Origin: Limnohabitans sp. Rim8
GTDB lineage: Bacteria; Pseudomonadota; Gammaproteobacteria; Burkholderiales; Burkholderiaceae_C
NCBI RefSeq assembly: GCF_945901735.1
Contig: NZ_CAMDLM010000003.1
Span: 62,001-126,000, forward strand
Length of the DNA stretch: 64,000 nt
Reading direction: 5' to 3'
The first letter of the stretch is position 1. Each line of letters opens with the position of its first letter. The notes below the pieces were generated by a model, which had not been told where the DNA came from, searched no databases, and saw nothing but the letters and a program-made list of their open reading frames with translations. The translations under genes and the position numbers were made by a program. Of this stretch, positions 1,748 through 35,663 are shown piece by piece.

Positions 1748-1933
1748 ATGTGGAAAATTGTTGTGGGTTTCGTGATCTTTGCGGCCTTGGCTTTGTATGT
1801 GATCAGCCAAGGCGGTGACAGCCTGGACATGAGCGGTGAAAAGCACGGCGCAGACGCCGTGCATGTGGAACCCGCCAAGGCCGATGCTGCTGCACCTGCT
1901 GCACCGGCCGCAGACGCCAGCGCAGCCAAGTAA
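1748..1933 (+). CDS. small single-TM hypothetical protein
   Basis: GGAG ribosome-binding site upstream; N-terminal hydrophobic helix ([21 protein letters not shown]) and Ala-rich tail; flanked by terminators. Confidence 0.6.
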
Positions 1934-1975
1934 GCGCACCAGCATCCCAGGGCTTCAGGCTCTGGCGATCGCCCC

Positions 1976-2004
1976 AAAGCCACGCAGCCGCGTGGCTTTT
2001 CTTT
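1976..2004 (+). terminator. Rho-independent terminator
   Basis: AAAGCCACGC-AGCC-GCGTGGCTTTTCTTTT. Confidence 0.7.
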
Positions 2005-2069
2005 TGGGCCGCAGAAATGTCACAGCCTGCGCCCTAGAATGTTTGGCCCCCACCCGAAAAAGCCCGTCC

Positions 2070-5000
2070 ATGTCCCAAGGTCTCATCCGCATCCGTGGTG
2101 CCCGTCAGCACAACCTCAAAAATATCGATTTGGACATCCGCACCGGCGAGTTGACAGTGGTCACCGGCCCCAGCGGGTCGGGCAAGTCGAGTCTGGTGTT
2201 TGACACGCTGTACGCCGAAGGCCAGCGCCGCTATGTGGAGACCTTCAGCGCCTATGCCCGTCAGTTTTTGGACCGCATGGACAAGCCGGCAGTCGACAAG
2301 GTCGAAGGCGTGCCTCCGGCGATTGCGATCGACCAGACCAACCCGGTGCGCAGCTCACGCTCCACCGTGGGCACCATGACCGAGCTGAATGACCACCTGA
2401 AGTTGTTGTTTGCCCGCTTGGGCCAGTTGTTTGACAAAGACACTGCGAAAAGCGTGCGCACCGACAACCCCGATACGGTTTATGCCGAACTGGCCCAGCG
2501 TTCCGCGCAAGCGGGTGACCCGCGCCTTTACTTGACCTTTCCGGTCGAGCTGCCCGCGAACACCAGCGCCGAGCAGGTTGAGCAATGGTTGTCGGCCAGC
2601 GGCTTCACCAAAGTGCAAGCCGAGCGCGAAGTGGCCACCCCCACCGGCCCGCGCAAAGTGCTGGACGTGGTCGCCGACCGTTTTCGCATCGGCACCGCCG
2701 AAAAAGCCCGCGTGGTCGAAGCCATCGAAGTGGCCCTCAAACGCGGCGGCCGCCTGAATGTGTACGTGGAGAAATTGGGGTCAGATCCCAATTTATCTTC
2801 TTCCTCAGAGCCCGCCTTTGACCTCTGGCGTTTTTCCACAGGCCTGCATTGCCCCGAGAGCGACCAGCGCTACACCGACCCGATCCCGTCGATGTTTTCC
2901 TTCAACTCGGCCGTGGGCGCGTGCGAGACCTGCCGGGGTTTTGGACGTGTGATCGGGGTCGACTACGGCCTCGTCATTCCGAATCCCAAATTCACCTTGC
3001 GAGCCGGGGCCATCAAGACGCTGCAAACACCCGCCTGGCAAGAAAACCAGGACGATCTGATGCGCCACGCTGAGGCCGCCGGCATTCCGCGTGACACGCC
3101 TTGGGACAAGCTGACAAAGGCGCAGCAAGATTGGGTGATCAACGGCTCACCCGAGTGGAAGGGCCGCTGGAACCACCAGTGGTACGGCGTGAAGCGCTTT
3201 TTTGAGTACCTGGAGAGCAAGGCCTACAAGATGCACATCCGTGTGCTCTTGTCCAAGTACCGCAGTTACACCGAGTGCCCCAGTTGCCAAGGGGCGCGGT
3301 TGAAGACCGAGAGTTTGCTCTGGCGCATTGGCAGCCACTCGGATGCCGATGGGGTGTTGCCTGTCGAAAAGCGTTTCATGCCCGCAGGTGTGAAGTGGAC
3401 GCGTGGTCAGTTGGAGGCGCTGCCGGGTCTGAGTTTGCACGACATGATGATCATGCCGCTGGACCGGTTGCGTTTGTTTTTTGATCGGGTGTCGGCCTCT
3501 GGGCATGAGAAGTCGGAAAACGCTGGATCCACCACAAGGTCTGCGTCAGAGCGGGGGGCGGGCGACGATTTTGGCGTACCCCCGCCGTATGAGGAGCCCG
3601 CCCCCCGCTCTGATGCAGACCAAACCTCCGAAGAAACCACCGAAGCAAGCCAGGCAAAAACCCAAGGCCCCAGTGCCGAACAAAAAGCCCTGCAACTGCT
3701 GTTGGAAGAAATCACCACCCGCCTCAAATACCTGTGTGACGTGGGCATTGGCTACCTCACGCTCGACCGCCAAAGCCGCACGCTCAGCGGCGGTGAAGTG
3801 CAGCGCATCAACCTCACCACCGCCTTGGGCACCAGCCTGGTCAACACCCTTTTTGTGCTGGACGAACCCAGCATTGGCTTGCACCCGCGTGACATGCACC
3901 GCATCACCTTGGCCATGCACCGCCTGCGCGACGCGGGCAACACGCTGGTGGTGGTCGAGCACGACCCGGCCGTCATGATGGCCGCTGACCGCATGATCGA
4001 CATGGGCCCTGGCCCGGGCGAGCGCGGGGGGCAAATTGTGTTTGACGGCAGTACCGCCGACCTGCGCAACGCCGATACGCTGACGGGCGCATACCTTGGA
4101 GGACGCAAGCAAGTCGGCTTGGGCTTCAAGCGCATGGTCACCGACAGCACGCCGCGTTTGATTCTGGAAGGCGCGCGCGAGCACAACCTGCAAAACATCA
4201 GCGTGGACTTTCCGCTCCAGCGCTTGGTCACCATTACCGGCGTCAGTGGTTCGGGCAAATCGAGCTTGATTCAAGACGTGTTGGCTCCGGCGCTGATGCG
4301 CCACTTTGGCAAAGCCACCGAAACACCCGGCGCGCACGACCGCCTGCTGGGCGCCGACCACCTGAGCGATGTGGTGTTTGTGGACCAATCACCGATTGGC
4401 AAAACCGCCCGCTCCAACCCCGTGAGCTATGTGGGCGCATGGGACGCGATCCGCGAGATTTTTGCCACTGCGCCACTGTCGCGCCAGCGCGGCTACACCG
4501 CCAGCAAGTTCAGCTTCAACGGCGGCGATGGCCGTTGCCCCACTTGTGGCGGCTCGGGTTTTGAGCATGTGGAGATGCAGTTCTTGAGCGATGTCTATTT
4601 GCGTTGCCCCGATTGCGATGGCAAGCGCTACCGCCCCGAGATTTTGGAAATCACCGTCGAACGCCAAGCCATTGGCGGCGCAGTGCGTCACCTGAACGTG
4701 GCCGACGTGCTGGCCCTCACGGTGAGTGAAGCCGCCGCTTTGTTTGCGCAAGACCGCGACGTGATCCGTGCCCTGCAGCCCATCGTGGATGTAGGTCTGG
4801 AATACGTGCGCTTGGGCCAGCCCGTGCCCACCTTGTCGGGTGGCGAGGCGCAGCGCCTCAAACTCGCGGGCTTTCTGGCCGAGGCCGCCAAAAGTGCGTC
4901 CAAGAGCCGCCAGAGTCTAGCGCGCAAGGGCACGCTTTTCATGTTTGACGAGCCGACCACCGGTCTGCACTTTGACGACATCGCCAAGCTGATGCGCGCT

Positions 5001-8000
5001 TTGCGCAAGCTGCTCGAAGCTGGGCATTCGCTCATCGTCATTGAGCACAATCTGGACGTGATCCGTGCCAGCGATTGGCTGATCGATTTGGGGCCTGAGG
5101 GCGGCTATGCCGGCGGCCTGATTGTGGCCGAGGGCACGCCCGAAGATGTGCGCCAGCACGCGACATCGCACACGGGGCTGGCATTGCGCGACTATGCCGA
5201 GTCCATGGGGGAGGTGTTGGGTGTGGCTGAGCGTTTGGGTGCGGATTTGTACCTTGGTGGGGGCGAGGCTGCGGTGTCAGCGGGTTCCTCATACGGCGGG
5301 GGTGCGCCAAAATCGTCACCCTCTGACACCGCAACCTCGCTTGCTAAGGTTCGAGGCGGGGTTGGTGCCACATTGCTGGCTCCGGTTGCTCGTCGGCCGC
5401 CTGTTTTGAACAACAACATCCAAATCGTCAACGCCAAAGAGCACAACCTCAAAAACCTGAGCGTGGACATTCCACGCGGCAAGTTCAACGTGGTCACCGG
5501 CGTGAGTGGCTCGGGCAAATCCACGTTGGCCTTTGACATCCTGTTCAACGAAGGCCAACGCCGCTATCTGGAAAGCCTGAACGCCTATGCCCGCAGCATC
5601 GTGCAACCCGCAGGTCGCCCCGAAGTTGATGCGGTCTATGGCATCCCGCCCACCGTGGCGATTGAGCAGCGCTTGTCGCGAGGCGGCCGCAAATCCACCG
5701 TGGGTACGACCACAGAGGTCTGGCATTTCTTGCGTTTGCTCTACGTCAAGCTGGGCATTCAGCATTGCGTGCACGACAACACACCCGTGCAGCCGCAAAC
5801 GCCCGACAGCATCGTCGCGCAACTCATGACGCAATTCAAAGGCCAGCACATCGGTCTGTTGGCCCCGCTGGTGACGAACCGCAAGGGCGTTTACACCGAA
5901 CTGGCCGACTGGGCGCGGCCGCGCGGCTACACCCACCTGCGCGTGGACGGCGAGTTTTTGCCCACGCAAGGCTTTCCGCGCATCGACCGCTTCAAAGAGC
6001 ACAACATCGAATTGCCTGTGGTCAGTCTGGATGTGTTGCCGAGCCATGAAACCGCGCTGCGCCAAGCCCTGAGCAAAACACTGGAACACGGCAAAGGCGT
6101 GGTCCATGTGCTGAGCGATCTGGACGGCCTGCGCGAAGCGATGTTCAGTGGCGAGTCCACCGCCCGCATCGGGCAGCACCGCGTGTTCTCTACCTTGCGG
6201 GCCTGCCCCGCGTGCGACACCTCGTATGCCGAGCTGGACCCGCGTTTGTTCTCGTACAACAGCAAGCACGGCTGGTGCCCCGACTGCGTGGGCACGGGCG
6301 TCAAGCTGAGCAAAGACGAGCGCCAAGTGTTTGACGACTCGGTGCAAGACGATAAAAACAAGGGCCGCGAGCAAACCTTTGCCGAGCCCGAGATCGAAGA
6401 CCTGGCCAATGTGGCTTGCCCCCGTTGCGAAGGCACCCGCCTGAATGCCACAGCACGCGCCGTTCGGCTGGGCGCAGCGCCGGGACAGGGCTGGCGCATC
6501 ACCGACATCGCCAGTTTGTCGGTCACCGATGTGCGCAGCTGGGTTGACAAGCTGCACCTGACTGGTCGCGACGCCGACATCGCCCGTGACCTGGTGCCCG
6601 AGATCCAAAGCCGTCTGGAGTTTCTGGAAGAAGTGGGCCTGGGTTACCTCACGCTCGACCGGGGTGCGCCCACGCTGTCGGGCGGTGAGGCGCAGCGCAT
6701 TCGCCTGGCCGCGCAATTGGGCAGCAACTTGCAAGGCGTGTGCTACGTGTTGGACGAACCCACCATTGGCCTGCATGCGCGTGACAACCGGATTTTGCTC
6801 AACGCCTTGCAAAGCCTGAGCGACAAGGGCAACACCCTGGTGGTGGTCGAGCACGACGAAGACACCATCCGCCGCGCCGACCACATCATCGACATTGGCC
6901 CGAGTGCCGGCAAACGCGGTGGCCGTTTGGTGGCTGAGGGCTCGGTGGCCGACATCACGGCGTCTGCCGATTCGCAAACGGGGCGCTATTTGTTGCATGC
7001 GATGAAGCATCCGATGCAAGTTCGCAGGTCGGTGTCAGTCTCGACACGGGGCAATGGGCTGAACGCCTCATATGGCGGGGGTACGCCAAAATCGTCGCCC
7101 AGCCCATCACCCCATGTCGAGACATTGGCGTCGCCGATGCAATGGCTCACCCTCACGGGTGCCAACCTGCACAACCTGCGTCAGGTCGATGTGCAGGTGC
7201 CCCTCAAGCGCTTGGTGGCCGTCACGGGTGTCAGTGGCTCGGGCAAATCCACCTTGGCCCGCGACGTGTTGCTGGCCAATGTGCAGGCCCTGGTCAGCCA
7301 ACGTTCCACCTTTGCCGGGCGCACGGCGCAAGACGCGGGCCAGCGCGTGGCTTTGACGGCGTGCAGCGATGTGCAGGGCTTTGAGACGATCGACCGTGTG
7401 CTCGAAGTCGACCAGACCCCGATTGGCAAAACACCTCGCTCTTGCCCTGCCACCTACATTGGTTTTTGGGACACGATCCGCAAGTTGTTTGCAGAAACGC
7501 TGGAGGCCAAGGCGCGGGGTTATGCCGCTGGGCGCTTCAGCTTCAACACCGGTGAAGGCCGTTGCCCCAGCTGCGAAGGCCAGGGCATGCGCACCATCGA
7601 GATGAGCTTTTTGCCCGATGTGAAAGTGCCTTGTGAAACCTGCCGAGGCGCGCGGTTCAACCCCGAGACTTTGGCGGTGACTTGGCGTGGCAAGAGCATT
7701 GGCGACGTGTTGAAAATGGAGGTCGACGAGGCGGTGGACTTTTTCGCCAGCATGCCCAGCATCGCGCACCCGCTGCAGTTGCTCAAGGATGTGGGCTTGG
7801 GTTACCTGACTTTGGGTCAGCCTTCGCCCACGCTCAGTGGCGGCGAAGCCCAGCGCATCAAGTTGGTGACCGAGCTGACCAAGGTGCGCGACGAGGTGGG
7901 CAAACGCGGCAACAAAGCGCCGCACACTTTGTATGTGCTGGACGAGCCCACGGTGGGCCTGCACATGGCCGACGTGGACAAGCTCATCAGCGTGCTGCAC

Positions 8001-8201
8001 CGCTTGGTCAACGCGGGCCACAGCGTGATCGTGATCGAGCACGACCTCGACGTGATCGCCGAAGCCGACTGGGTGATTGACCTGGGCCCGGAAGGGGGCA
8101 ACGCCGGGGGCCGCATTGTGGCCGCCATGACGCCTGAGGCCTTGGTGATTTTGGGCACCCACACCGGGGTGGCGCTGGGCCCGGTGTTGGCGCGGGTGTG
8201 A
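2070..8201 (+). CDS. uvrA: double-length UvrA paralogue (two tandem UvrA units, four ABC ATPase domains)
   Basis: Repeated UvrA hallmarks: [80 protein letters not shown]; four LSGGE signatures; CxxC zinc motifs; start at ATGTCCCAAGGTCTC. Confidence 0.93.
2772..2794. repeat. REP-like hairpin inside uvrA-type CDS
   Basis: AAATTGGG-GTCAGAT-CCCAATTT, perfect 8-bp stem; translated as KLGSDPNL between VYVE and the conserved [14 protein letters not shown]. Confidence 0.75.
3538..3621 (-). repeat. core-and-variable-stem palindromic element, copy 1 (reverse orientation) inside uvrA-type CDS
   Basis: Left arm 3538-3562 GGTCTGCGTCAGAGCGGGGGGCGGG pairs with right arm 3597-3621 (1 mismatch in 25); core 3563-3596 is the reverse complement of CTCCTCATACGGCGGGGGTACGCCAAAATCGTCG. 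Confidence 0.9.
5263..5340 (+). repeat. core-and-variable-stem palindromic element, copy 2 inside uvrA-type CDS
   Basis: Left arm 5263-5285 GCGAGGCTGCGGTGTCAGCGGGT pairs with 5318-5340 (2 mismatches in 23); core TCCTCATACGGCGGGGGTGCGCCAAAATCGTC at 5286-5317. Confidence 0.9.
7038..7123 (+). repeat. core-and-variable-stem palindromic element, copy 3 inside uvrA-type CDS
   Basis: Left arm 7038-7061 GTCTCGACACGGGGCAATGGGCTG pairs with 7100-7123 (3 transition mismatches in 24); core CCTCATATGGCGGGGGTACGCCAAAATCGTCG at 7066-7097. Confidence 0.9.
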
Positions 8202-31275: not shown

Positions 31276-31561
31276 CGCTTGGCCGGCAGAGATGACAAAA
31301 ACACTGGAAAAATGTGGACCGTGTTGCATGAGCGACAAGGGATCGCTGTTTCCGAAAAGAGCTTCTGAAAAATGGGAATTTAATTTTTTTCAAAAAATGG
31401 GGGAATTTTTTTCAGGTTTGAGTTTTGTTTTTCCGTGAGAAATGCGGGTTATCACCAGTATTTTTGAGTTTTTGATGACATAAATTAGCATTTGATAATT
31501 CTTTTGTAATAGTTTTATCAAACGACGACAAGCCATCAACTTAACAGATCAACAACGGGAG

Positions 31562-32845
31562 ATGACGATGAAATTGAACCGACTCAGTGCTGCTTTGCTT
31601 GCAGCCGCGCTGGCCACTGGGGTGCATGCCCAGCCTGGCAAAGACAACCTCAACACGATGAAGCAGATGAAGGTCGCCACGACCGATCTGAACATCCCCG
31701 TGGTGCCGCAAACCGGCCGCAATGCCGACGCCATTCGCAACAACCTGAAAAAAATCAAGATGCCCGATGGCTTCAAGATCGAGTTGTTTGCCGTGGTGCC
31801 CGATGCGCGCCACATGGCGATTGCCCCCTCCACCAACATGCTGTTCGTGGGCACACGCAAAACCACCGTCTGGGCGGTGACCGACCGCAACAGCGACGGC
31901 ATTGCCGACGAGGTGAAGTCGTTTGCGCCCTCGCTCAACTTCAAGGTGCCCAATGGCGTGTGCTGGACCAAGGATGGTTTCCTGGTCGTGGCCGAGCACA
32001 ACCGCGTGCTGAACTTCCCAGCCGCTGAATTCTTCTATGAAGGCCCAGATGTCGCGGTGATCGAGGTGGTGCCCCAAGGCAAACTGATCCCGACCGAGCA
32101 CGAGTCGTACAACCACGGTGCGCGCACTTGCCGCGTAGGTCCTGACGGCAAGCTTTACGTCACGCTGGGCCAACCTTTCAACGTGCAGCCGCGTGACAAG
32201 GTCGATGAATTCAACCGCCTGGGCATTGGTGGCATCGTGCGCATGGACCCCTTTGACGGCAGTGGCCGCGAGGTCTACAGCATCGGCATGCGCAACTCGG
32301 TGGGCCAAGACTTCAACCCCAAAGACGGCAGCCTGTGGTGGACCGACAACCAAACCGACGGTTTGGGCAATGAAGTGCCGCCGGGTGAGTTGAACCGCTC
32401 TACCAAAAAGGGCGAGCACTTTGGCTACCCCTACTGGAACGGCAAATTCAAAGTGGCTGGCACATCGGCCGCGCCAGATTTGAAGGACATGAAAGAGCCC
32501 GCCAACGCGGTGTTCCCTCAGGTGGAGTTTCCGGCCCACCAGGCACAGTTGGGCATGACTTTCTACACCGGCAACAAGTTCCCCGCCAAATACCGTGGTG
32601 GCATCTTTGTGGCCTCACATGGTTCGTGGAACCGCAGCCCTGCCAGCGGCGCGCTCATCAACTTCGTTTCGCTCAAAGCCGATGGCACGGCCGACAAGTC
32701 CGAGGTGTTTGCCGAAGGCTGGTTGAGCCCTGAAACCGGTACTTACATCGGTCGCCCGGTGGATGTGGCGGTCATGAAAGACGGCTCCATGCTGATCTCG
32801 GACGACTTTGTGGGTGCGATTTACCGCGTGACTTACGGCAACTGA
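31562..32845 (+). CDS. sorbosone-dehydrogenase-family (PQQ-type beta-propeller) oxidoreductase
   Basis: Signal peptide; ARHMAIAPSTNMLFVGTR, GLGNEVPPGELN, LISDDFVGAIYRVTY. Confidence 0.88.
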   Translation: MTMKLNRLSAALLAAALATGVHAQPGKDNLNTMKQMKVATTDLNIPVVPQTGRNADAIRNNLKKIKMPDGFKIELFAVVPDARHMAIAPSTNMLFVGTRKTTVWAVTDRNSDGIADEVKSFAPSLNFKVPNGVCWTKDGFLVVAEHNRVLNFPAAEFFYEGPDVAVIEVVPQGKLIPTEHESYNHGARTCRVGPDGKLYVTLGQPFNVQPRDKVDEFNRLGIGGIVRMDPFDGSGREVYSIGMRNSVGQDFNPKDGSLWWTDNQTDGLGNEVPPGELNRSTKKGEHFGYPYWNGKFKVAGTSAAPDLKDMKEPANAVFPQVEFPAHQAQLGMTFYTGNKFPAKYRGGIFVASHGSWNRSPASGALINFVSLKADGTADKSEVFAEGWLSPETGTYIGRPVDVAVMKDGSMLISDDFVGAIYRVTYGN

Positions 32846-32860
32846 TGCCTTGATCGATGA

Positions 32861-32891
32861 AGGCACCCGCGCTTTGCGGATGCCTTTTTTT
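32861..32891 (+). terminator. Rho-independent terminator/attenuator
   Basis: AGGCACCCGC-GCTTT-GCGGATGCCTTTTTTT. Confidence 0.75.
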
Positions 32892-32896
32892 CAAGG

Positions 32897-33256
32897 ATGA
32901 AAAGGTTGAACATGTTTTCAGCAAGCGCAAAAAGTTTTCAAGCCATCAGTTTGGTTTTGGCCATGAGCGCGGGGCTGGCTTGTCAGGCCCAAGCGGCAGA
33001 CGCCAAAGCCGGTCAGATCAAGGCCGGCATGTGCGTGACCTGCCATGGTGCTTTGGGTTTGTCCACCATGCCCAATGCGCCCCACCTGGCCGGTCAACCG
33101 GCCATTTACATTGAAGAGCAACTCAAGCAATACCGCAGCGGCAAACGGGCCAATGAGGTCATGGCGGTGATGGCCAAGCCCTTGACCGACAAGGAAATAG
33201 AAAATCTGGCCGCTTGGTACGCATCCATCCCCATTGAAGTGGGCCCACCTCGCTAA
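32897..33256 (+). CDS. class I c-type cytochrome
   Basis: Signal peptide; CVTCHG heme motif; distal Met region VMAVMAKPLTDKEIENLAAWYAS. Confidence 0.92.
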   Translation: MKRLNMFSASAKSFQAISLVLAMSAGLACQAQAADAKAGQIKAGMCVTCHGALGLSTMPNAPHLAGQPAIYIEEQLKQYRSGKRANEVMAVMAKPLTDKEIENLAAWYASIPIEVGPPR

Positions 33257-33422
33257 TGGCATCCAAGCGCAAATTCTCAAGCCAGCTTAGTGGAAAACGC
33301 TGTCTTTTTGGCGTCGATACAGCTCCAAGTTTCGCAGGAAAAAAATCAAAAAAGGGTGTGAGCGGGCCCAAGCCCTTGAGCCATCCGCCCTTGTTCCATG
33401 CCCGATACAACCGCCCACGATC

Positions 33423-35663
33423 ATGAACGCTGCTCCCATGACCCTTTCTCCCCCATCCAGCCAGAACCGCACCCGTCCCGTACGGCTTGCGCCTGTGGCC
33501 TGGGCCATTGTCCTGTTGTCTGCCGCTGGCGCGCAAGCGCAAGCGCAGGCGCAGGCGGTGCCTCAGCCAGCGGCCGTGGCCGATGCCGATGCCGGGGCCT
33601 TGTCGCCGGTGGTCGTCTCTGCTGAACGCACAGGGGGTGGCGTCTGGCGCGGTGCGGCGTCGGTCGATGTGGTTGACGGCGAGGAACTGCGCGAGGGCCA
33701 GGCCCAAGTCAACCTGTCCGAAAGCTTGGGTCGTGTGCCTGGCTTGGTGATTCGCAACCGGCAAAACTACGCCCAGGACTTGCAAATTTCGGTGCGAGGT
33801 TATGGGGCGCGTGCCACCTTTGGCGTGCGCGGTGTGCGTTTGTTTGTCGACGGCATCCCGGCCAGCGCCCCCGATGGCTCGGGGCAGGTGGCCAATTTCC
33901 CTTTGGGCGGTGCCGACCGCATTGAAGTGGTGCGCGGCCCGATGGCGGCGCTGTATGGTTCTTCGTCGGGGGGCGCGTTGCTGCTGTACACCGAAGAGGG
34001 GCAGCACCCGGCCCAATGGCGTACCGGGATGGTCGCGGGGTCCGATGGTTTGTGGCGGCTGTCAACGCAGGCGACGGGCAAAACAGGCGCCCCCAAAGAG
34101 CCAGGTTGGTCTTATGCGCTGGATGTGAGCCGGTTTGAAACCGACGGCACGCGGCCGCAGTCGGCGGCCGACCGGACCAATGCCAACCTGAAGCTCTCGC
34201 GCCCGCACGAGGGTGGGCGCACGGTGTTGGTGTTCAACCAGCACAGCAGTTTTGCGTTGGACCCACAGGGTTTGGAGCGCAAGGATCTGGACAGCGGCGT
34301 GTTCAAAACAGACCCCGGCGCCATCAACTTCAACACCCGTAAATCGGTGGCCCAAACCCAATTGGGCTTGGCTTTTGAGCAGGCCCTGGGGGGCGGGCAC
34401 AAGTTGGAATTGATGGGTTACGGCGGGCAGCGGCAATTGATGCAGTACCAGTCAATCCCACTCACTTCTCAAGCCGGTGCAAACAACGTGGGCAGCTCCG
34501 GTGGTGTGATCGATCTGGACCGTGATTACTGGGGCTGGAATGCCCGCTGGCGAAATGCGCGTGACTGGCAAGGCGGGCGCTTGTCGCTCAGTGCCGGTTT
34601 GGCATCTGACCACCAAAGCGATGTGCGCAAAGGTTTTGAAAATTTCACGGGTACTTCTGCCAATCCGACAGCTATTGGCGTGCAGGGCAAGCTGCGTCGC
34701 GACGAGGTCAACCGCGCCCAAACGATGGACCCGTATGTGCAAGCCGAATGGCGTACGCAAGACCTGACGCTCATGGTCGGGGTGCGCCAGACGCAAACTG
34801 AATACGAGTCCTCGGACCGATTCCTCGGCAACGGTGACGACAGTGATCGCAAGACCTTCCAGGCCACCTTGCCGGTGGTGGGCGTGCGCTGGCAGTGGAG
34901 CCCAGCTTTGCAGGCCTTTGCCAGTGTGGGCAAAGGCTACGAAATCCCGACCCTCAACGAGGTGGCTTACCGCACCGACAAGGTCTCCGGCTTCAACACC
35001 CAGCTCAATGCCGCCCGCAGCACCAGCGCCGAATTTGGCTTGCGGGGTCGTGCCGAGCGCTTGGGCTGGACCGCCACAGTCTTTGACATCCGTACAGACG
35101 ATGAGATCGTGGTGCAAAACAACTCGGGTGGCCGTGCCACCTTCCAAAATGCCGGACGCACTCAGCGCCAAGGCTTGGAGCTGTCGGGTGACTGGCGCCA
35201 TGGCCCTGTGAGTTTGGTTTCTGCGCTGACTTGGATGCAGGCCGAATACCGCGATGCATTTCTGACCTGCGCTCGCGTAGGTTGTCCAGTCGCTTTTCCA
35301 AGGGTGCCGGTGTCCGCAGGCAACCGCCTCCCCGGCTTGCCCATTCAGCAAGTGTTTGTGCAAGCCGCTTGGGACACGGGCTGGCTGGGCAGCCGCGTGG
35401 TTTTTGAGACACGCCATGCGGGCCGGGTGATGGTCAATGACCTAAACAGCGATTCGGCGGCAGGTCACACCTTGTTCAACTTGGGCGTGCACTTCAAGCA
35501 AGATCGGGGGGATTGGACGCTGCGCGAGTTCATTCGGGTGGACAACCTGACCGACCGCCGCCATGTGGGCTCGGTCATCGTCAACGATGGCAATTTCCGC
35601 TTCTTTGAACCCGGCCCGGGCCGCAAACTCTTGCTGGGGCTGGAGGCGCAGCGCAGGTTCTGA
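33423..35663 (+). CDS. pqqU: TonB-dependent receptor, YncD/PqqU-like
   Basis: INLSESL-type plug, VPGLVIRNRQNYAQDLQISVRGYGARATFGVRGVRLFVDGIPA, YQSIPL, DDEIVVQNNSGGRATFQNAGRTQRQG, VDNLTDRRHVGSVIVND; recalled similarity to E. coli YncD (PqqU). Confidence 0.82.
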   Translation: MNAAPMTLSPPSSQNRTRPVRLAPVAWAIVLLSAAGAQAQAQAQAVPQPAAVADADAGALSPVVVSAERTGGGVWRGAASVDVVDGEELREGQAQVNLSESLGRVPGLVIRNRQNYAQDLQISVRGYGARATFGVRGVRLFVDGIPASAPDGSGQVANFPLGGADRIEVVRGPMAALYGSSSGGALLLYTEEGQHPAQWRTGMVAGSDGLWRLSTQATGKTGAPKEPGWSYALDVSRFETDGTRPQSAADRTNANLKLSRPHEGGRTVLVFNQHSSFALDPQGLERKDLDSGVFKTDPGAINFNTRKSVAQTQLGLAFEQALGGGHKLELMGYGGQRQLMQYQSIPLTSQAGANNVGSSGGVIDLDRDYWGWNARWRNARDWQGGRLSLSAGLASDHQSDVRKGFENFTGTSANPTAIGVQGKLRRDEVNRAQTMDPYVQAEWRTQDLTLMVGVRQTQTEYESSDRFLGNGDDSDRKTFQATLPVVGVRWQWSPALQAFASVGKGYEIPTLNEVAYRTDKVSGFNTQLNAARSTSAEFGLRGRAERLGWTATVFDIRTDDEIVVQNNSGGRATFQNAGRTQRQGLELSGDWRHGPVSLVSALTWMQAEYRDAFLTCARVGCPVAFPRVPVSAGNRLPGLPIQQVFVQAAWDTGWLGSRVVFETRHAGRVMVNDLNSDSAAGHTLFNLGVHFKQDRGDWTLREFIRVDNLTDRRHVGSVIVNDGNFRFFEPGPGRKLLLGLEAQRRF

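Follow-up and report, generated by a model that had tools for sequence, protein, structure and literature searches.

The 64,000-nucleotide stretch of Limnohabitans sp. Rim8 DNA analysed here (contig NZ_CAMDLM010000003.1, positions 62,001 to 126,000; hereafter the window) carries a three-gene locus that very likely serves the scavenging and use of pyrroloquinoline quinone (PQQ), a function for which we infer the transport step, the need for the cofactor, the path of the electrons and the substrate. As a first-pass annotation of this DNA had described, the genes are consecutive + strand open reading frames of 427, 119 and 746 residues, separated by gaps of 51 and 166 bases. They encode a secreted AA12-like/GSDH-family dehydrogenase, predicted to depend on PQQ and Ca (P0001, 31562..32845), a periplasmic monohaem cytochrome c, its presumed electron acceptor (P0002, 32897..33256), and a PqqU (YncD)-type TonB-dependent receptor, predicted to import PQQ with high affinity (P0003, 33423..35663). 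The locus probably also exemplifies a class of PQQ consumers that is widespread but undescribed, namely AA12-like secreted dehydrogenases usually accompanied by a cytochrome c and linked to PqqU by gene order or co-occurrence, which would represent the missing PQQ enzyme of PqqU-bearing bacteria for which none has been reported, such as the ammonia-oxidising Nitrosomonadaceae.

Identity of the receptor

The best-scoring NCBIfam model for the receptor was PqqU (NF041535; 591 bits, E 2e-177), with a siderophore receptor model as runner-up at 128 bits. Likewise, the closest solved structures were E. coli YncD (6v81) and PqqU (9c4o) with E ~1e-143, whereas the first other receptor followed at 5e-10. 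The strong resemblance to YncD/PqqU that the first-pass annotation had noted from motifs was thus borne out, the motifs themselves being present in the sequence. The identity to 6v81 is 41.5% across 648 aligned residues. Because the score lies below the curated equivalog cut-off of NF041535 (TonB_rec_PqqU; 1200 bits), we base the PqqU assignment on the residue signature published for this receptor. The cryo-electron microscopy study of PqqU lists its PQQ contacts and a signature of Y/F/W99, R304 and R365 (PMC12124388). Residues F133, R337 and R402 of the receptor correspond to E. coli Y99, R304 and R365 and agree with this signature. Overall, the receptor matches E. coli PqqU at ten of the eleven mappable PQQ contacts, including Q84, Q121, K274, Q308, Q310, N477, Y481 and R536 (E. 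coli numbering), the eleventh being the signature-permitted Phe at Y99. Positions Q84, F99, K274, R304, R365 and Y481 were invariant among 105 related receptors and the window receptor. Within its own genome, the second-best match to the PqqU model reached only 98 bits. By the published signature the receptor is therefore assigned to PqqU, with high-affinity PQQ import as its predicted function; a grouping with siderophore or cobalamin receptors, named beforehand as an outcome that would overturn the module, was not observed, as PqqU scored far higher and the PQQ signature was kept.

Enzyme-adjacent receptors often carry Leu at E. coli Q310 and Ala or Thr at N477, where many others have Gln and Asn (PqqU homologues L126, L130, L132, L133, L135 and L175–L191), a variation that may mark a subclade. 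Between the window and the related locus L013, the identity is 77% for the receptor, 97% for the enzyme and 92–96% for the flanking genes. The receptor hence changes much faster than the enzyme and the flanking genes, perhaps under phage pressure.

The dehydrogenase and its cytochrome

The enzyme matched the Pfam family GSDH (PF07995) with 53.5 bits at a gathering cut-off of 25, in line with its initial placement in the sorbosone dehydrogenase family, and also matched DUF7133. Comparing an AlphaFold2 model (pLDDT 88) with the PDB by Foldseek placed fungal AA12 PQQ dehydrogenases at ranks 1–4 (best 6jt5 and 6h7t; E 2.6e-20 to 1.6e-19), and the top 20 hits consisted entirely of six-bladed proteins of the PQQ sugar dehydrogenase type. 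The PQQ- and Ca-binding residues of AA12, derived from a PQQ-bound crystal, are R273, H363, R430, N431, D451, H539, H560, W563, N564 and R621 (PMC6881789). Their counterparts in the enzyme by alignment are R83, H185, R244, N245, D266, H326, H353, W356 and N357, with R398 at the position of Arg621. R83, H185, R244, N245, D266, H326, W356, N357 and R398 were invariant in 75 of 75 family sequences. A lack of PQQ-binding residues, the other finding that had been put forward as decisive against the module, was accordingly not encountered. The model PF22807 (TrAA12) matched 4 of 30 homologues and did not match the window enzyme, and we therefore use the name AA12-like instead of AA12. An assignment as PVC-type haem protein (TIGR02604) was rejected at 69.6 bits against a cut-off of 122, the sequence having no CxxCH haem motif. 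Taken together, model and residue mapping point to a predicted secreted dehydrogenase with a six-bladed propeller that would depend on PQQ and Ca.

The second gene product matched Cytochrom_C (PF00034; 33.4 bits) and contains a single CxxCH motif (CVTCH; 33032-33046, + strand) as well as a signal peptide judged by eye, consistent with the periplasmic cytochrome c proposed earlier; its best PDB relatives are cytochromes c4/c552/c554. Where the encoded enzyme shares at least 50% identity with that of the window, a cytochrome gene accompanies it at nearly every locus, and this pairing suggests that the cytochrome is the electron acceptor of the enzyme.

PQQ supply in the host genome

PqqC, PqqD and PqqE were not found in the host genome (96% complete assembly), as anticipated by the first-pass annotation; a weak PqqE match on contig 2 proved to be MoaA. 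The search for an eight-bladed quinoprotein dehydrogenase yielded BamB as the sole PQQ_2 match, which was discarded. A second GSDH enzyme, full-length and of the Asd kind, is encoded on contig 15 (L158; 7247-8509; 430 bits). As PQQ-type enzymes are encoded without PqqC, PqqD or PqqE, we predict that the host uses PQQ without making it. The ABC genes upstream of the window locus were rejected as PQQ importer, since the permease is of the ABC-2/NodJ type (exporter class) and the pair persists beside receptors without the enzyme cassette.

The canonical Asd/YliI-like GSDH gene on contig 15 lies directly upstream of pstS- and pstC-like phosphate-uptake genes, a gene order that may tie the production of sugar acids to phosphate starvation.

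Recurrence of the enzyme–PqqU linkage

Enzyme, receptor and PqqC were sought in one common set of 399 genomes of the order, and the positions of the matches were compared. PqqU was present in 113 genomes, 112 over the search threshold and one (G215) with a weaker receptor seen at the locus. In 28 of these 113, PqqU and an enzyme homologue were no more than 1.5 kb apart, about 70-fold above the ~0.4 expected from a rough estimate based on gene density and assuming 3.5 Mb genomes. The gene-order comparison proposed at the outset thus revealed a neighbourhood that recurs far above chance. The codirectional order enzyme–cytochrome–PqqU occurs in G000, G049, G108, G147, G152, G250, G264 and G309, a divergent arrangement of enzyme and PqqU in G198, G143, G382 and G245, a convergent one in G144, G181, G203 and G376, and PqqU comes first in G210 and Pollutimonas L061. 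In G215 (contig 9, L124; 2-5888), a single PqqU is flanked by two different enzyme–cytochrome c pairs, whose enzymes share 77% and 35% identity with that of the window.

The linkage also tracks the source of PQQ. Counting enzymes at least 51% identical to the window enzyme as close homologues, PqqU or PqqC was present in 26 of the 28 genomes that encode one versus 126 of 371 others (Fisher p 5e-10), and among these 28 the close homologue adjoined PqqU in 9 of the 12 that lack PqqC versus 2 of the 16 that have it (p 0.0015), these p-values being weakened by the shared ancestry that the Fisher tests ignore. In PQQ makers the enzyme mostly stands apart from PqqU, whereas in non-makers it usually adjoins PqqU, the direction that a scavenging module predicts.

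A candidate PQQ enzyme for the Nitrosomonadaceae

A 2025 survey describes PqqU in 1861 genomes and in 22 phyla and reports no PQQ-dependent enzyme for 40 Nitrosomonadaceae with PqqU or for certain further groups, suggesting for PqqU without an enzyme either an antioxidant role or an unidentified enzyme (PMC12124388). The methods given there name PF01011, PF13360 and PF13570 together with a published dehydrogenase model, and the GSDH family PF07995 is not among the named domains (PMC12124388). The enzyme class would have been missed in the Nitrosomonadaceae because the named domains omit this six-bladed family. Nitrosovibrio sp. Nv4, on which the Nitrosomonadaceae label of our sample of 61 genomes rests, encodes an AA12-like enzyme that matches PF07995 and DUF7133 only and keeps all PQQ residues. 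Among these 61 genomes of its family, the AA12-like enzyme was present in 22 of 22 with PqqU versus 13 of 39 without PqqU (p 7e-8). None of the 61 had PqqC above the cut-off, and weak matches of 43–67 bits against the cut-off of 240 were dismissed. In this family the enzyme gene does not adjoin PqqU, and at the one locus examined no cytochrome gene is close by, so that the support from this family consists of co-occurrence.

Counter-evidence and alternative explanations

Several observations weigh against a PQQ scavenging-and-use locus and the class drawn from it. At the residue level, R398 corresponds to AA12 Arg621 by position only, and H353 (AA12 His560), a His in 61 of 75 homologues, is Lys or Arg in the other 14; the shortfall of the receptor at the equivalog cut-off counts likewise, as does the shared ancestry behind the Fisher tests. 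About 75% of the PqqU genomes have no adjoining enzyme homologue, and neither PqqU nor PqqC was found in 28 of the 121 listed enzyme-bearing genomes, which, like the family cases that follow, could reflect diffusion of PQQ through porins, gaps in the assemblies or a role not involving PQQ. The same two proteins were not found in 13 enzyme-bearing genomes of the Nitrosomonadaceae family, mostly small ones (G417 family: G422, G426, G428, G430, G432, G434, G438, G442, G446, G450, G452, G454 and G466), pointing either to another PQQ entry route, to incomplete assemblies or to a different function. Furthermore, the enzyme–cytochrome cassette is present in the collinear loci L013, L017 and L020, whereas L012, L014, L015, L016 and L023 lack it but retain the receptor together with the ABC and hydroxyacyl-CoA dehydrogenase genes around it. 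No cassette remnants were found in these five, and the block is thus a cassette that was acquired or lost next to the receptor gene; L012, L014, L015 and L023 encode a more distant relative of the enzyme elsewhere. The enzyme–PqqU link is thus common, not obligatory. Of the PQQ module put forward in the first-pass annotation, the core stands, with PqqU-type receptor, PQQ residues and a recurrence above chance, but as a frequent association and not as an obligate unit, given the collinear relatives without the cassette.

Mapped on the receptor tree, adjacency required ~12 changes versus 29 with shuffled labels, so that inheritance on the one hand and repeated formation or loss on the other both account for it in part. 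This clumped distribution, in place of one change per adjacent locus, is a further point on the opposing side and would fit a single old cluster passed on by descent, the apparent recurrence then reflecting statistical non-independence and not repeated selection. However, order and orientation vary by lineage (enzyme–cytochrome–PqqU, PqqU–enzyme–cytochrome, divergent and convergent), and twelve changes still amount to repeated gains or losses, which makes descent from one cluster an unlikely account. In a second scenario, the receptor would import PQQ for the Asd-like sugar dehydrogenase encoded elsewhere, and the AA12-like propeller of the window would be a non-PQQ protein adjacent by chance. 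The full-length, 430-bit GSDH on contig 15 and the receptors kept without the cassette in collinear relatives speak for it. Yet chance adjacency is at odds with a linkage ~70-fold above expectation in several gene orders, and a non-PQQ propeller with PQQ/Ca residues invariant across the 75 sequences, with AA12 PQQ enzymes as best structural matches and with the strong co-occurrence of the enzyme with PQQ sources, and we judge this scenario quite improbable. Transport of another negatively charged small molecule (a PQQ–metal complex, a PQQ analogue or the substrate of the enzyme) would accommodate the modest identity and sub-cut-off score of the receptor, the ability of TonB receptors to switch ligand and, for the substrate, the adjacency itself, but appears very improbable given that all eleven mapped PQQ contacts are conserved, including K274 and R536, two less conserved positions, besides the signature trio (PMC12124388), and that substrate import would not predict adjacency where PqqC is absent, yet PqqC absence predicts adjacency.

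Proposed mechanism and relation to known systems

For a PQQ scavenging-and-use locus, we propose that the receptor binds free environmental PQQ and that TonB-driven release delivers it into the periplasm. There, the AA12-like six-bladed dehydrogenase from the same locus would be charged, as apo-enzyme, with PQQ and Ca2+; as this consumer is periplasmic, no inner-membrane importer would be required. The loaded enzyme would oxidise a substrate, probably a sugar or aldehyde-like compound, with the conserved His185 as base, and electrons would pass from the enzyme via the co-encoded cytochrome c to the respiratory chain. The Asd-like enzyme of contig 15 would draw on the same imported PQQ.

PqqU, AA12/GSDH dehydrogenases and quinoprotein–cytochrome pairs are each already known separately. 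In E. coli, the known PQQ consumers Gcd and YliI are encoded away from PqqU. The window receptor shares with E. coli PqqU (YncD; 6v81, 9c4o; PMC12124388) the plug-and-barrel family, the PQQ contacts and a host apparently without PQQ synthesis, but differs in its Phe at Y99 and in the linkage of its gene to a presumed consumer and a cytochrome. Similarly, the enzyme resembles AA12 of Coprinopsis cinerea (CcPDH; 6jt5, 6jwf) and T. reesei (6h7t) in its six-bladed propeller and PQQ/Ca residue counterparts, whereas it is only ~18–20% identical to these fungal proteins, bacterial and secreted alone, with a separate c-type cytochrome where the AA12 pyranose dehydrogenase has a fused b-type domain. 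With Asd (YliI, 2g8s) and A. calcoaceticus sGDH it shares the GSDH superfamily, the catalytic His and the Arg–Asn pair, yet it has an AA12-type HGSWN loop unlike sGDH (Lys377). As in four Burkholderiales genomes with PqqU linked to pqq biosynthesis genes (PMC12124388), the neighbourhood ties PqqU to PQQ biology; unlike in those four, the partner here is a consumer enzyme with a cytochrome, mostly in genomes without PqqC. No report tying PqqU to this enzyme class, physically or phylogenetically, was found in the main texts of the open-licence papers searched. The recurrent pairing suggests that a class of PQQ-using enzymes has been overlooked and names a testable candidate for the missing PQQ enzyme of PqqU-bearing lineages. 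Moreover, the genomic rule of enzyme plus PqqU where PqqC is missing predicts neighbour-dependent PQQ users in freshwater and nitrifying communities.

Locus layout and intergenic DNA

The enzyme–cytochrome cassette, present or absent as one block among collinear relatives, spans 31276..33245 (+ strand, as for all following features) by locus comparison. It begins with an A+T-rich intergenic region of 286 bases 5′ of the enzyme gene (31276..31561), the likely cassette promoter, which contains a weak sigma-70-like site (31472-31499) at chance level (one site versus a mean of 1.0 in shuffles). The enzyme–cytochrome gap holds a weak hairpin followed by a T-rich tail (32867..32879), a possible attenuator of a class likewise matched at chance level. 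Since promoter and terminator scans of the intergenic DNA of the locus gave counts no higher than chance, we infer an operon structure from spacing and strand. A candidate TonB box (SPVVVSA, residues 61–67 of the receptor; 33603..33623) was assigned by sequence inspection.

Among the collinear relatives, L014 (CALQKH020000004.1) is labelled Akkermansia muciniphila; as its locus is collinear with the window at 83–96% protein identity, this label or bin looks wrong. Near the start of the window, an open reading frame of 2121 residues extends over 1836-8201.

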